This document shows positions 8,566 through 29,013 of a stretch of 39,784 bases of DNA, piece by piece. How positions within the stretch are numbered: the first letter of the stretch is position 1; each line of letters begins with the position of its first letter. The stretch lies in assembly GCA_007118495.1 (NCBI GenBank), contig SKRM01000038.1:1-39784 (forward strand), read 5' to 3'. The notes under the pieces are model-generated. The model saw only the letters and a list, made by a program, of their open reading frames with translations, did no database searches and had not been told where the DNA came from. The DNA comes from Bacteroidales bacterium (GTDB lineage: Bacteria > Bacteroidota > Bacteroidia > Bacteroidales > UBA7960). Position numbers and translations under genes: made by a program.

Positions 8566-11328
8566 TTAAATCACCACATTGACAATTTTTCCCGGTACAA
8601 CAATGACCTTTTTTGGGTCTTTGCCCTGTAACCATTTTGCCGCTTCAGGTGCACTGAGTGCCGCTCTTTCAACTTCTTCTTTGCTGCTGTTGCTTGGCAA
8701 TTCAAGCTTAAACCGTGTCTTTCCATTAAACGATACCGGATAAACCACAACATCATCGGTCACAAGCTTTTCATCCCAATCAGGAAATGATGACAGGGCA
8801 ACACTTTCTTTGTGTCCAAGAATATGCCACAACTCTTCGCCAATATGTGGGGCAAAAGACGAAATCATCACCGCCAATGGCTCAAGCACCTCACGTTTAC
8901 TACATTGCAGCTCTGTAAGCTCATTTACACACACCATAAAAGCACTTACTGCCGTGTTAAAAGAAAAACGTTCAATGTCACCACTTACTTTCTGAATGGT
9001 CTTGTGCAATATCTTCAGTTCTTTTTCTGAGGCGGGTTCTTCTGATATGTGCACATTATTGCCACGGTCATGGTACAAGCGCCAAAGTTTGCGGATAAAC
9101 CTGAAAACGCCTTCAATGCCTTTGGTGTCCCAGGGTTTGGCCTGTTCAACCGGGCCAAGGAACATTTCATAAAGCCTCAGGGTGTCGGCGCCGTATTTTT
9201 CAATAAGATCGTCGGGATTAACCACATTGTGGAATGATTTTGACATCTTTTCAATTTCCCACCCACAAATGTATTTGCCATCTTCAAGAATGAATTCGGC
9301 ATCACTGAATTCAGGGTTCCATTTCCTGAAAGCTTCCAGATCAAGCACATCTTTATCTACGATGTTCACATCAACATGGATGGGCATGGTATCATACGCC
9401 TCTTTGAGGTTGAGCGAAACGAATGTATTGGTTCCTTTTACGCGATACACAAAATTTGACCTGCCCTGAATCATTCCCTGATTGATCAGCTTTTTAAAGG
9501 GCTCCTCTTTTTTCACCACCCCGATATCATAAAGAAACTTATTCCAGAATCTGGCATAAATCAAATGGCCGGTGGCATGCTCAGAGCCACCCACGTACAG
9601 GTCAACGTCCTGCCAGTATGATACCGCTTCATCTGATACCAGCTGGTTATTGTTGGCAGCATCCATATACCTGATATAATACGCACTTGAACCGGCAAAT
9701 CCAGGCATGGTGTTACACTCAAGGGGATAACCATCTTTGGTCTGCCATTTCTTTGCACGTGCAAGTGGTGGTTCACCTGTTTCGGTAGGCAGGTATTTAT
9801 CAACCGGAGGCAATTCAAGAGGCAAATCCGACTCTGGCAACACGTAGGGCACACCTTCTTTGTAATACACCGGGAATGGTTCGCCCCAATACCTTTGGCG
9901 GCTGAAAATGGCATCTCTGAGCCGGAAGTTCACCTTGCCCTGCCCGATGCCTTTGAATTCAAGTTTACGAATCACTGCCCTGATGGCTTCCTTAACCTCC
10001 ATCCCATCCATAAACCCGCTGTTCATCATCTTTCCTTCTGTGGCGTCATAAGATTCTTCGGCCACATCTCCACCGCTAACCACCTGTACAATGGGCAGCC
10101 CAAAATGCCTGGCAAAAGCATGGTCCCGGCTGTCATGGCCAGGAACAGCCATAATGGCCCCTGTGCCATATCCAGCCAAAACGTATTCAGCAATATAAAT
10201 GGGGATGTCTTGACCAGAAAAGGGATGCACTGCAAATGCCCCCGTAAACTGCCCCGAGACAGTCTTCACCTCAGTCATTCGTTCCCGGTCAGATTTGCTT
10301 CCGGCAACCTTTACATATTCGGCCACCTGCTGCCTGTATGCTTCGGTGGTGATTTTCTCCACAAGTTCGTGTTCTGGTGAAAGCACCATAAAGGTGGCCC
10401 CAAAAACTGTATCCGGCCTTGTGGTAAACACTTCGATAGACTCCTGGTGGTGTTTTACCCCAAAAAATATGGTAGATCCTTCAGAGCGGCCAATCCAGTT
10501 ACGCTGAATTTCCTTGAGCGAATCACTCCAGTCAATCTCCTCCAAACCGGCAAGCAATCGTTCTGCATAAGCAGTAATGCGCAAGAACCACTGCTTCATC
10601 TTTTTTCGCACAACAGGATGACCCCCACGAACCGAAAAACCCTCGCGGACCTCATCGTTGGCAAGTACCGTACCCAACCTGGGACACCAGTTTACCAGGG
10701 TATCGCTAAGGTAGGCGAGACGGTAATGCATCAGCACATCCTGCTTTTCTCCTTCATCCATTTTTAGCCACTCAACAGCGGTAAACTCAGGCACAAAACC
10801 ACAGGCTGCATCCACGTCAACATTTCCGCTGCGGCCGAAAATCTTTGCCAAATCACTGACAGGTTCAGCCCTGGCCGTCTTATTATTGTAATAATGGTTA
10901 AAAAGCTTGATAAATGTCCACTGTGTCCATTTGTAATAGGAAGGATCGCAGGTTCTGACCTCTCTGTCCCAGTCATAGCTAAAACCAATCCTGTCAAGTT
11001 GTTCTCTGTACCTTTTTATATTCTTTTCAGTGGTAACGGCCGGATGCTGACCTGTCTGAATAGCATATTGCTCTGCCGGCAGACCATATGCATCATAGCC
11101 CATGGGATGCAGCACATTAAAACCCTTCTGCCTTTTATAGCGACTGAAAATATCCGAGGCAATATAACCCAGGGGATGTCCAACATGCAAACCCGCGCCT
11201 GATGGATACGGGAACATATCCAGCACATAATACTTGGGCCTGTCATGATCTATGAAAACCCGGTACGTTTTGTTTTCTTTCCAAAACCCCTGCCACTTCT
11301 TTTCAACATCCCTGAAATTATACTCCAT
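8566..11328 (-). CDS. leuS: Leucyl-tRNA synthetase
   Basis: LeuS charges tRNA-Leu. The 920-aa protein has the class I signature HVGH at 48-51 and KMSKS at 694-698. Between them is a complete CP1 editing domain, with [11 protein letters not shown] (threonine-rich) and [19 protein letters not shown] (catalytic Asp region), so mischarged tRNA can be cleared. The C-terminal anticodon-binding and LeuS-specific domains end with [15 protein letters not shown]. Length is usual for Bacteroidota. The start [13 protein letters not shown] is a standard family start. No TAnnTTTG box was found upstream, and the hairpin array lies in its divergent upstream region. Confidence 0.98.
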
Positions 11329-11379: not shown

Positions 11380-11557
11380 GCGAAGCCCCTCCGGGGCTGA
11401 GCCAACTGCACGGAGCGCAGCGACGTGCCAACAGCGAGGCGCCCCGCGCCGAGCCTAACAGCCCGAGGCGCAGCCGAGGGCATAACAGCGAGGCACCCCG
11501 CACCGAGCCCAACCGCACGGAGCGCAGCGACGTGCTAACCACGAGGCGCAACGTGCC
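11380..11557 (+). repeat. Array of small GC-rich hairpins, about 27-bp period
   Basis: Six well-formed units begin at 11380, 11408, 11434, 11461, 11488 and 11515, and a degenerate seventh occupies about 11540-11557. Each unit is 21-23 bp: an outer stem arm of 2-5 bp, GA, an inner stem arm of 2-6 bp, a 3-base loop, the inner arm, GA, and the outer arm. Inner cores are AGCCCC-TCC-GGGGCT (unit 1), GC-GCA-GC (units 2 and 6), GGCGC-CCC-GCGCC (3), GGC-GCA-GCC (4) and GGCAC-CCC-GCACC (5, two mismatches). Units 2 and 6 are identical. Linkers of 5-6 bp are CAACT, CAACA, CTAACA, ATAACA and CCAACC. This fills most of the 331-bp gap between leuS and mutA. Confidence 0.9.
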
Positions 11558-11602
11558 AGGCATATTGACCTGCGAATTTACTAAATGTTCCCTTTTTTAT
11601 TG

Positions 11603-11610
11603 TAATTTTG
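11603..11610 (+). promoter_or_regulatory. Bacteroidota -7 box for mutA
   Basis: TAATTTTG is a full TAnnTTTG match. The predicted start near 11617 gives a leader of about 43 nt. The hairpin array therefore lies upstream of, not within, the mutA transcript. Confidence 0.6.
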
Positions 11611-11659: not shown

Positions 11660-13510
11660 ATGGACCAAGAAAAAAAGTCCGGATTATTTCAAGACTTTCC
11701 GGCCATTTCTACCAAAGAATGGGAAGAAAAGATCCACGCTGATTTGAAAGGGGCCGACTACGAAAAGCGCCTGGTCTGGAAAACACCCGAAGGCCTGGCC
11801 GTTCAGCCCTATTATCGGAGCGAGCATCTGGAAAATTTGCCCCATATGGGCATCCTGCCGGGTGAAGCACCATATGTCAGGGGCCACAAAATAAAAAATA
11901 ACGACTGGGAGATCCGCCAGGATTTTGAAGAGCCAGATCTGGCCAAAGCCAATGAGCTGGCTACAAATGCCATCTCAAAGGGAGCCGAGTCAGTGGGTAT
12001 TAATGCTTCAGAAGTAGAATCAAAAGACAACCTGAAGAGTTTGCTCAATGGCATCGATCCTGAAAAAACACCCATTCACTTTATCCACGGTAAAAATTAC
12101 CCGGAACTATTCGGTCAACTTTGCGAACTGCACCCGTCAGCAAATGTCAGAGGTTCGCTCAACTTTGATCCCCTGGGCTACTACCTGTTATATGGAAAGT
12201 TTTACGAGACAGCTGATTCAAACATGGAAGATGCAAAAAAACTGATCCATTCAGCAAAAAAAGACAAACCAGGTTTCAGGGTTGTTACTATCAACGGACA
12301 GCATTACCATAATGCAGGCGCAAGCATCGTTCAGGAGTTGGCATTCTCGCTGGCTCAGGCTTCAGAATACCTTGCCGGATTAACCAAAAAAGGATTAAGT
12401 GCTGATGATATTGCTCCGTTTATACAGTTTACCCTGGCCACAGGATCAAACTATTTTATGGAAATTGCCAAGTTCAGGGCCGTTAAATTGCTTTGGGCCT
12501 CTATACTTGAAGCATATGGAATAAGCGACCCAGGCCTGTCTAAGATCAATCTGCATGCGGTAACATCAAACTGGAATAAGTCAGTATATGATCCTTATGT
12601 GAACATGCTGCGCACATCAACCGAAGCCATGGCAGCTGCCATAGGCGGAGTAGAAAGCATGACTGTCAACCCGTTTGATACCAGTTTCAAAAAACCTGAC
12701 AAATTCTCATTGCGTATTGCCCGCAACCAGCAGATTGTCCTTAAGCATGAGGCCTATTTCAACAAGGTTGCTGACCCGGCCGCCGGATCATATTATGTTG
12801 AAAATCTTACGCACTCCATTGCAGAGGCAGCCTGGAAACTATTTGTTGAAGCAGAAGAAATGGGTGGGTTCATCAAAGCCGTCGAAAAGGGATTTATCGG
12901 CCAGCAAATCGAGGCAACCTGCCAGCGCAGAGACATTGACATTGCCATGCGGAAGCAAGTGTTTGTTGGAACAAACCTCTATCCAAACACTTCAGAGCGC
13001 ATGCTTGACAAGGTAACGCCCACCGCCAAACTTACTGACCTGTCAGGATTACGTCAGTACAGAGGGCCACAGGCATTTGAAGCCATCAGGATGGCGGTTG
13101 AGAATCATGAAGCCAAAGGATTTACAACACCCAAAGTATTCATGTTCACCTTTGGAAATCCGGCCATGCGTAAGGCGAGAGCCACTTTCGCATCCAACTT
13201 TTTTGGGGTGGCAGGTTATGAAATTATTGACAATCTCGGATTTACCGATCTGAACAAGGGCGTTGAATCAGCACTTGCTTCAGGAGCACAGATTGTTGTA
13301 CTTTGCAGCAGTGACGAAGAATATGCTGACATGGTCAGTGCCGCCACCAGTATCAAAGAGCAGTCACCTTCTACGCAAGTTGTGGTAGCCGGAAACCCCA
13401 AAGAACTCATTGAAAAGCTTCGTGAAGCGGGCGTTGATGACTTTATCCATATCCGCACCAACGTGCTTGATTCTCTTACCCACTACAACGAGAAGCTGGA
13501 GATTGCCTAA
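11660..13510 (+). CDS. mutA: Methylmalonyl-CoA mutase small (beta) subunit
   Basis: This is the non-catalytic partner of the heterodimeric mutase that interconverts succinyl-CoA and (R)-methylmalonyl-CoA. The 616-aa protein keeps the TIM-barrel half and a degenerate B12-like C-terminal domain. At the position of the cobalamin-ligand motif DxHxxG it reads FTFGNPAMRKARATF and has no histidine, as expected for the small subunit. The start is MDQEKKSGLFQDFPAIS, with the family motif KEWEEKIHADLKGADYEKRLVWKT. The catalytic subunit follows by 33 bp. In Bacteroidota this enzyme feeds propionate production during succinate fermentation, or propionate and amino-acid use; the direction cannot be told from the window. 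Confidence 0.96.
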   Translation: MDQEKKSGLFQDFPAISTKEWEEKIHADLKGADYEKRLVWKTPEGLAVQPYYRSEHLENLPHMGILPGEAPYVRGHKIKNNDWEIRQDFEEPDLAKANELATNAISKGAESVGINASEVESKDNLKSLLNGIDPEKTPIHFIHGKNYPELFGQLCELHPSANVRGSLNFDPLGYYLLYGKFYETADSNMEDAKKLIHSAKKDKPGFRVVTINGQHYHNAGASIVQELAFSLAQASEYLAGLTKKGLSADDIAPFIQFTLATGSNYFMEIAKFRAVKLLWASILEAYGISDPGLSKINLHAVTSNWNKSVYDPYVNMLRTSTEAMAAAIGGVESMTVNPFDTSFKKPDKFSLRIARNQQIVLKHEAYFNKVADPAAGSYYVENLTHSIAEAAWKLFVEAEEMGGFIKAVEKGFIGQQIEATCQRRDIDIAMRKQVFVGTNLYPNTSERMLDKVTPTAKLTDLSGLRQYRGPQAFEAIRMAVENHEAKGFTTPKVFMFTFGNPAMRKARATFASNFFGVAGYEIIDNLGFTDLNKGVESALASGAQIVVLCSSDEEYADMVSAATSIKEQSPSTQVVVAGNPKELIEKLREAGVDDFIHIRTNVLDSLTHYNEKLEIA

Positions 13511-28158: not shown

Positions 28159-29013
28159 ATGAATATTGCCATAAGCGGCTCGGGAGGTTTTGTCGGGAAA
28201 AAACTTTCTGCAAGTCTGATCGGAGCCAGACATGAGGTACTTGCAATACCCAGGCATTGGTTTTCGCTGGATCATTCCACCCTGGCAGACAATCTCAAAG
28301 GCGCCGAATGCGTCATACATCTGGCCGGAGCACCTATTCTCAGGCGATGGACAAAATCGAACCGAAAAGCAATTTACGACAGCCGGATCAACACAACACA
28401 ACAATTAACCAGAGCCATGGCACAAATGAAAGACCCGCCCCATACATTCATCTGTGCATCAGCTGTCGGTATTTACCCTGAAACCGGTGTCCATGATGAG
28501 AACAGCCGTGAAAGAGCCAGTGATTTTCTCGGCGAAGTTTGCACAGATTGGGAGTTGGCAGCCTCAAGGGTTCCATCTTCGTGCCGACAGCTATCTTTTC
28601 GATTTGGCGTTATTCTTGGAAATAACGGTGGCGCACTCGGCCAAATGCTGCTGCCCTTTAAACTAGGCCTGGGAGGCAGAATCAGCCACGGAAAACAAAT
28701 GATGCCCTGGATTCATATGGACGATGTAACCGGAATCTTTCAATTTGTTCTTGACAACTCAGCGATCAAAGGCCCGGTGAATATTACAACCCCCAATCCG
28801 GTATCAAATCTTGCCTTTACCCGAACATTGGCCAAAACCCTCAAACGTCCGGCCTTTATGCCGGTTCCTGAATGGGCACTTAAGCTGGCGTTTGGACAGG
28901 GAGCCACCGTGTTAACCCGCGGACAGACAGTCGTTCCCGGCACACTCACCAAGGCAGGTTATCCATTTCGCTTTCATGAGCTTGAGGCAGCCCTTTGGGA
29001 TTTGATAAAATAA
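28159..29013 (+). CDS. TIGR01777-type NAD-dependent epimerase/dehydratase (SDR)
   Basis: The 284-aa protein belongs to the extended short-chain dehydrogenase family known from YfcH and the plastid SulA-like proteins. The nucleotide-binding glycine motif GSGGFVG is at 7-13. VIHLAGAPI, SRINTTQQL, SAVGIYP, and the C-terminal DUF1731-like part (VPEWALKLAFGQGATVLTRGQ) all match the family. Substrate is unknown. An upstream in-frame extension to 27802 runs antisense through the tolC-like gene and lacks family similarity, so ATG 28159 is used. It is followed by a terminator and appears to be monocistronic. Confidence 0.9.
   Translation: MNIAISGSGGFVGKKLSASLIGARHEVLAIPRHWFSLDHSTLADNLKGAECVIHLAGAPILRRWTKSNRKAIYDSRINTTQQLTRAMAQMKDPPHTFICASAVGIYPETGVHDENSRERASDFLGEVCTDWELAASRVPSSCRQLSFRFGVILGNNGGALGQMLLPFKLGLGGRISHGKQMMPWIHMDDVTGIFQFVLDNSAIKGPVNITTPNPVSNLAFTRTLAKTLKRPAFMPVPEWALKLAFGQGATVLTRGQTVVPGTLTKAGYPFRFHELEAALWDLIK

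Follow-up and report, generated by a model that had tools for sequence, protein, structure and literature searches.

The genome of a Bacteroidales bacterium (assembly GCA_007118495.1) carries dispersed arrays of short hairpins in which, judging from sequence comparison, the fold and not the letters seems to be what is kept, both in this genome and in its relatives. They are tentatively explained as a REP-like repeat family, maintained via recognition of one folded strand, probably of DNA, with AAC as the joint between units and an enzyme other than a Y1 protein of the host. The unit consists of a hairpin with a tandem G-A block, capped mostly by a C-closed GNA loop (in the sister species also GNNA) and followed by a YAAC joint. 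The array from which the analysis started lies in the window, the whole analysed stretch of 39,784 nucleotides (contig SKRM01000038.1).

The hairpin array of the window

Two classes of hairpin are distinguished by the outer stem, which has 2-3 bp in class S and 4-5 bp in class L. The units of the window array are as follows:

11380..11402, + strand: hairpin unit 1, S class (2 bp outer stem, GA/GA, 6 bp inner stem, loop TCC), linker CAAC, 8/8 pairs
11408..11428, + strand: hairpin unit 2, L class (5 bp outer stem, GA/GA, 2 bp inner stem, loop GCA), linker CAAC, 7/7 pairs
11434..11454, + strand: hairpin unit 3, S class (2 bp outer stem, GA/GA, 5 bp inner stem, loop CCC), linker CTAAC, 7/7 pairs
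11461..11481, + strand: hairpin unit 4, L class (4 bp outer stem, GA/GA, 3 bp inner stem, loop GCA), linker ATAAC, 7/7 pairs
11488..11508, + strand: hairpin unit 5, S class, 2/5 inner-stem pairs broken, linker CCAAC, 5/7 pairs
11515..11535, + strand: hairpin unit 6, identical to unit 2, linker TAAC, 7/7 pairs
about 11540..11557, + strand: degenerate seventh unit, read from the sequence without a pairing plan

GA on each arm, a loop of three bases and an AAC-ended linker are common to all six units. The first-pass annotation described six full units and one degenerate unit at a period of 26-28 bp. This layout stands, with start-to-start spacings of 28, 26, 27, 27 and 27 bp for units 1-6, whereas the number of intact units falls to five because unit 5 pairs at only 5/7 positions. 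The arms of unit 5 read GGCAC and GCACC at the mismatch and look as if drawn from two unit types. The C-GCA-G closure ascribed to units 2, 4 and 6 is confirmed by the sequence of the array. No Rfam model matches the window at its gathering score.

Copies across the genome

A blastn search with the window array gives 38 matches in the 2.63 Mb genome. The expectation that a covariance model would reveal array-like copies elsewhere was borne out: a model of the two-hairpin unit (R1), with which 150 of 742 first-look candidates in this genome were scored, gives at least 70 matches at E up to 0.001 and at least 82 up to E 10. These group into about 37 places (36 if a single array spans the ends of C11 and C57), a number that may be an underestimate since the assembly breaks at arrays. 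Contigs C57 and C11 (loci L011 and L012) both begin inside what seems to be one array.

The stretches fetched for closer reading hold 30 clusters with 138 hairpins, including chance ones without GA/GA (for example at 28895-28954 of the window); the 25 clusters with GA/GA were kept for the analyses of position. Twenty loci were read. They contain few unit types in shuffled order, joined by YAAC, with one strand per array. The polarity that had been proposed for the window array extends to the others, whose units follow one another head to tail on a single strand. A block of 172 bp recurs in the window and contig C32 at 91% identity. At a few places, stretches of opposite orientation are close neighbours (C61 1577-1725; G019 C163 30868-31127; L283 of G159). 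The arrays look clustered, contigs of this genome longer than 100 kb having none or one array match at E up to 0.001. On contig C52 (L249), six same-strand hairpin clusters lie within 21 kb, one of them without GA/GA.

Pattern searches were also applied. A strict finder, for which at least two GA/GA hairpins had to lie within 40 nt, was run on 194 loci, those from L043 onwards (1.48 Mb), and gave two clusters: the copy in the window (L043) and a chance cluster (L118). Scans of genome and viral contigs gave no array among the matches listed when these were passed through the strict finder, save that chance cluster. A pattern with a 3-bp inner stem has 0 matches in the source genome; in 395 genomes of the phylum it matches 21 places in 14 genomes. 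The 20 places read contain no such array; they are stretches of coding sequence, isolated hairpins, palindromes of other kinds and a duplicate spaced at 177 bp. A loose finder accepting any 2x2 mismatch was dropped, as it gave 81 clusters in a sample of the source genome vs 71 after shuffling, and similar results in five relatives.

Unit grammar and stem pairing

A parse that did not require GA, in which each hairpin was taken with its following AAC linker, was applied to 23 regions. One region proved empty; the other 22 hold 108 hairpins, of which 92 have a 2x2 internal loop and 16 are plain stems. The internal loops are GA/GA in 89 cases, GG/GA in two and AA/GA in one, in regions that are not independent of the window because they were found by similarity to it. 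Among the 89 GA/GA units, 48 have a GNA loop and 82 a C-G loop closure. The hairpins are preceded by AACA, AACC or AACT in 94/108 cases. A unit measures about 19-23 nt, after which comes the YAAC joint. Neighbouring hairpins tend to alternate between the S and L classes (50 alternating vs 13 equal pairs); 50 is reached in 1 of 10,000 within-array shuffles (mean 36), counts that are non-independent because of copying between arrays.

The pairing of the stems is best judged from segments that were chosen by their flanks. For class S the pattern was AAC-N-GY-GA ... GA-RC, linker, AAC, with no requirement on the inner stem. A perfect Watson-Crick inner stem is found in 49 of the 56 segments so chosen (34 distinct), with 9 different arms, compared with 10/1120 letter shuffles. 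Of the 287 cells, 3 hold a G-T pair and 7 a mismatch, and the outer pair reads GC/GC in 49 segments, GT/AC in 6 and is mismatched in 1. These counts supersede those from 21 S units (147/147 cells paired, both-sided changes in 5/7 pairs, covariation 0.465 vs 0.199, and 7 further pair types vs a shuffled mean of 7.3), which are partly circular because their parser demands pairing.

Arrays in related genomes

No copy of the window array is found by blastn in 40 relatives. The R1 model, run over 393 genomes of the order, matches 10 genomes. Reading of the nine besides the source genome showed hairpins of the GA/GA type, with other letters, in five: G019 (same genus), G098 and G201 (family f75), and G159 and G332 (family f23). 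The matches in G066, G360 and G393 look coding, and that in G379 is another palindrome. The R1 model matched the GA strand in 6/6 loci checked, and GA/GA in the relatives is partly ascertained because the search models carry GA letters on the matched strand. The stems and linkers of these relatives differ from those of the window. In three segments of family f23, 13/13 internal-loop hairpins are GA/GA with a GNA or GNNA loop, and the linkers are ATTA-like words in place of AAC.

A second model (R2), built from the G019 unit, gives 121 matches in G014, 100 in G019, 67 in G016, two in the source genome and one in G013, with no match in the other 16 of the 21 genus genomes. When applied under stricter filters to all 393 genomes, R2 brings in f75 and a single weak match. 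Across the 3.9 kb mutA loci, G019 shares 91.6% identity with G016 and 85.7% with G014. The unit of these three sister-species genomes reads AAC, GA, stem, loop, stem, GA, AAC, with stems unlike those of the window.

The sister sample comprises 59 stretches, 57 of them chosen for R2 matches, with 62 arrays and 250 hairpins for which AAC on both sides and perfect stems of at least 4 bp were demanded. The flanks of these hairpins are GA/GA in 212, AA/GT in 19, CA/GG in 7 and others in 12. All 250 have a C-G closure, there are 13 stem types, and the loop is GNA in 115/117 triloops and GNNA in 122/133 tetraloops (237/250 together). The C-closed GNA/GNNA cap is weaker in the source genome. The RNA-type GNRA accounts for only 5 of the 122 GNNA loops, and GNYA prevails. 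Segments were also chosen without regard to pairing, as all those of the form AAC-N-GGA...GAC-N-AAC. A perfect stem is present in 232 of these 249 (60 distinct) vs 23/4980 letter shuffles, and 6 of their 1334 cells are G-T and 32 mismatched.

Stems therefore change in pairs in both groups (49/56 and 232/249 perfect), as expected if compensatory changes occur across copies. The claims that the plan of the unit is constant while its letters vary, and that structure rather than sequence has been conserved, accordingly hold genome-wide and in the relatives, where stems differ while GA/GA and the fold stay.

At orthologous loci of the sister species, place and strand are kept and most units differ (ten sets read, some with one flank). 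In all four loci with both flanks the array lies on the same strand. An unselected 136 kb of G019 contains no unit of the sister type; array absences are under-sampled because contigs were picked for arrays.

The leuS-mutA locus and its counterparts

The window array lies between two divergent genes:

8566..11328, - strand: leuS, divergent neighbour (TIGR00396, 944.5 bits, above its cut-off)
11570..11610, + strand: conserved stretch before mutA, probable promoter, present in 8/16 loci of relatives, of which 11 were read
11660..13510, + strand: mutA homologue, downstream neighbour (TIGR00642, 555.5 bits, below the cut-off of 617.25; ORF of 616 aa)

In the comparison with 16 loci of relatives, the stretch before mutA is present in L044, L046, L047, L048, L050, L051, L058 and L059 and differs in L049, L054 and L057; the reading covered 11 of the 16 loci, those taken on the same strand. 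Its reading as a probable promoter refers to the motif TAnnTTTG. In five of the eight loci with the stretch (G014, G019, G008, G004 and G011), leuS and mutA start without any array between them. The window array is therefore taken for an insert beside the conserved stretch, itself read as the mutA promoter. The array sits outside this stretch, upstream of it, in agreement with the placement outside the predicted mutA transcript. In G003 and G018, simple tandem repeats (TTGGCTGTTGGC... and GACATTTAGACATTT...) replace the hairpins at this place (L044 about 1240-1430; L046 1-110).

Position relative to genes and strand

Start codons were counted as the ATG of ORFs of at least 100 aa. In the sister species, 33/67 arrays have a same-strand ATG within 60 nt downstream and 1/67 a divergent start upstream; within 150 nt the figures are 41 vs 8, orthologous arrays being counted more than once. 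For the 25 arrays of the source genome the corresponding counts are 7 vs 6 and 13 vs 7. Part of such a bias is explained by an excess of AAC before starts, although not one of 33 to 1: per 40 nt before start codons, AAC and GTT occur 1.22 vs 0.54 times in the source genome and 0.99 vs 0.60 times in G019, and AAC is 1.3 to 2.9 times as common in four genomes.

The arrays of the source genome occupy tandem, divergent and convergent gaps, with 4/25 between convergent genes. They lie outside ORFs of at least 100 aa in 23/25 cases, and the ORFs around the other two are probably spurious. A replication-strand bias was rejected on GC skew, the array strand being positive in 17 and negative in 13 of the 30 clusters.

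Folding as DNA or RNA

Folded whole as a single DNA strand, the window array has a z-score of -0.95, and 38/200 shuffles fold as well. As RNA its z-score is -2.48. Neither of the predicted minimum folds is a clean row of hairpins. The DNA fold energies of the two strands are similar (-44.6 vs -41.5 kcal/mol), the TC strand being about as good. The extrusion of the phage N4 DNA hairpin requires the same closing pair with a loop G and A, according to passages of PMC4496689. The loop is GNA in 48/89 GA/GA units of the source genome, and GNA or GNNA in 237/250 sister hairpins. DNA is favoured over RNA as the folded strand that would be recognised, because the cap resembles those of N4 and Streptomyces, GNRA loops are scarce and gene polarity is weak in the source genome. 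The start-codon polarity of the sister arrays and the better RNA z-score point towards RNA.

Comparison with known systems

The arrays are, as a kind, REP-like structured repeats lacking the tag, the transposase and the arrangement of GTAG/CGTC REPs. With those elements they share an imperfect palindrome, an intergenic position and many copies. The passages of PMC3733652 used here describe REPs as short palindromes with dispersed copies, complementary stem changes and, in some families, internal mismatches, all of which have counterparts in the present units. Differences lie in the nearly fixed GA/GA, the AAC-joined head-to-tail order and the absence of a foot and, in the four array-rich genomes, of a Y1 gene. 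Head-to-tail order is characterised in the same passages as absent, under-represented or negligible among REPs (PMC3733652), in which inverted HH/TT dimers are favoured; the arrays of the source genome run head to tail. The GTAG/GTGG/CGTC (TGTC, CCTC) foot is absent from 108 hairpins of the source genome.

The suggestion that the array is a substrate of a REP-associated, IS200-like nuclease is not supported, given the missing Y1 gene and these differences of foot and arrangement. A search for a RAYT-type transposase with PF01797 (Y1_Tnp) gave 0 matches in the source genome (98% complete) and in the sister genomes G014, G016 and G019 (77, 82 and 92% complete); the same search found matches in 11/24 entries and in 5/14 control genomes. 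Y1 genes are present in the other two array-bearing families, f75 and f23. Four Y1 loci were scanned with the short-unit finder. Three (L286, L287 and L290) are without a GA/GA hairpin, and in the fourth (L289, G159, f23) about 1.1 kb, including an ORF of 245 aa, separates the Y1 gene from a GA/GA array, so that one of the two Y1 loci examined in f23 has an array nearby. The Y1 gene of G159 is flanked by a palindrome other than the GA/GA unit. In Bacteroidetes, the Y1 transposases of TnpA subclass 2.6 are described with atypical flanking structures in passages of PMC6006769.

Likenesses are also found outside the REPs. The promoter hairpins of the phage N4 virion RNA polymerase have a C-closed G..A triloop with a sheared G-A pair and are extruded from supercoiled DNA (passages of PMC4496689); the present units differ in being tandem and in having an added GA/GA block. 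The Streptomyces telomere is described, in the portion of PMC7205883 drawn on, as a row of palindromes in about 160 nt with mostly GCA caps and sheared purine pairing, whereas the arrays described here are contig-internal, occur at many loci and have short AAC linkers. The repetitive hairpin elements of sponge mitochondria are likewise intergenic, divergent in structure and composition, and scattered across taxa; they belong to an organelle, and no GA/GA grammar is stated in the passages of PMC2800124 used for this comparison.

Two tyrosine recombinases (PF00589) are encoded in the source genome, one above the XerD cut-off and the other matching XerC best, below its cut-off. Integron attC arrays also fold as a single strand, share an AAC joint and keep one orientation, and their core sites are paired as GTTRRRY / RYYYAAC. 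The units described here are without paired core sites or genes, and the GTTRRRY start is absent from those read in the source genome. Models of integron integrase score far below their cut-offs in this genome. The integron reading was rejected on the presence of only XerC/XerD-like recombinases and on the missing GTT start. A CRISPR array was likewise rejected, as the repeats differ, the linkers have only 3-5 nt and there are no near-identical repeats with unique spacers. SbcD (TIGR00619), considered as an explanation for why hairpins are tolerated, is above its cut-off in 0/21 genomes, with weaker matches in 11/21, including three of the four array genomes. The searches for an enzyme covered PF01797, PF00589 (in the source genome) and TIGR00619 and gave no candidate. 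No description of AAC-joined GA/GA hairpin arrays was found in the open-licence literature.

Maintenance of the arrays and competing explanations

Recognition of a folded single strand is favoured because GA/GA is kept amid stem change, the cap is a C-closed GNA or GNNA loop and each array has one polarity. One strand of the unit would be recognised when single-stranded and folded, most likely as DNA. Folding might occur during replication, repair or supercoil-driven extrusion, by analogy with the promoter hairpin of phage N4. Through the AAC joints, units may be gained, lost and copied between arrays. Against this explanation stand the DNA z-score of only -0.95, the TC strand that folds about as well, the GNA loop in only 48/89 units of the source genome, the position of sister arrays before starts (33 vs 1) and the partial ascertainment of GA/GA in the relatives. 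The number of units per locus could also change by slippage and gene conversion. A bolder version is doubtful: that the arrays form a distinct mobile or self-maintaining class of DNA, made of AAC-joined tandem hairpin cassettes, selected as extruded ssDNA (sheared G-A block with a C-GNA-G or C-GNNA-G cap) and moved or homogenised by a putative single-strand enzyme other than Y1 HUH, with different letters in several families of one order.

The arrays might instead be 5' untranslated regions, whose hairpins, set apart by unstructured CAA-rich linkers, protect the message or prepare ribosome binding. The sister arrays upstream of same-strand ATG codons (33/67 vs 1/67 within 60 nt, 41 vs 8 within 150 nt), the RNA z-score of -2.48 and the arrays of the source genome that precede an ATG (7/25 within 60 nt, 13/25 within 150 nt) speak for such leaders. 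They are nevertheless rather unlikely: the source genome has nearly as many divergent starts at 60 nt (7 vs 6; 13 vs 7 at 150 nt), 4/25 of its arrays lie between convergent genes, the window array is upstream of the conserved stretch before mutA, the sister tetraloops are GNYA rather than GNRA, and part of the bias would follow if AAC were the target. It is unlikely, too, that slippage and gene conversion amplify the hairpins passively, without recognition, the fold persisting via block copying. The simple repeats at the same intergenic place in G003 and G018, the 7-8 bp tandem repeats in three (G003, G008 and G013) of the five relatives sampled, the 91% identical block of 172 bp in the window and C32, and the mere 13 stem types of the sister species would all fit such copying. 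It accounts poorly for paired stem changes beside a nearly fixed GA/GA and loop, and for lineages sharing neither stems nor linkers; if template switching corrected the hairpins, GA/GA would be expected to disappear.

Movement by a RAYT (Y1 HUH) transposase of the IS200/IS605 kind is very improbable, and is strongly disfavoured for the source genome. A palindrome with an internal mismatch block, dispersed copies in genome-specific families and two alternating hairpin classes (50 vs 13) would be in keeping with it, as would the Y1 genes of f75 and f23, that of G159 lying within about 1.1 kb of a GA/GA array, and the atypical structures beside subclass 2.6 TnpA (PMC6006769). The absence of PF01797 from G000 (the source genome), G014, G016 and G019, the missing GTAG/GTGG/CGTC foot, the one-strand head-to-tail arrays and the different palindrome at the G159 Y1 gene weigh against it. 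An integron-like cassette array with RYYYAAC joints and a folded single-strand substrate is hardly credible, and already fails in its defining features. The AAC-ended joint, the one orientation and the shuffling of modules are suggestive of it; the two recombinases are only XerC/XerD-like, integrase models score far too low and units of the source genome do not begin with GTTRRRY.

If recognition of a folded strand is the correct explanation, the arrays would offer a natural experiment, with structure retained and sequence left free at tens of loci in several lineages. Tests would become possible of how bacteria recognise hairpins, in DNA (or leader RNA), that carry sheared G-A blocks and GNA caps, and of whether REP-like repeats spread without a RAYT transposase.

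Other repeats near the arrays

In G014, G016 and G019, several arrays are preceded by a second repeat of about 70 bp that ends in CCCATGAGAACCAAC or close variants, at the following places:

L334 2255-2330: second repeat of about 70 bp before an array
L366 4530-4680: the same
L375 7330-7480: the same
L380 3330-3390: the same

GA/GA hairpins also occur within 8-base AAC-rich repeats (AATAACCA-like and AAACCCAT-like) in family f75 (L279 1940-1998 and L280 2060-2131) and in G013 (L318 about 1500), as if these repeats were a landing ground for hairpins or the ancestor of the linkers. In G159 (L289 1405-2060), the Y1 gene is flanked by repeats with GGCCTTCAGGCC palindromes, a candidate separate REP family. 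A different palindrome (GTCATTGCGAGGA...CGACGTGGCAATCTC) is present in G750 (L310 about 1400-1560) as an inverted pair, with GA, stem, GCA or GAA loop, stem and GA; in one copy, two GA/GA layers seem to be nested.
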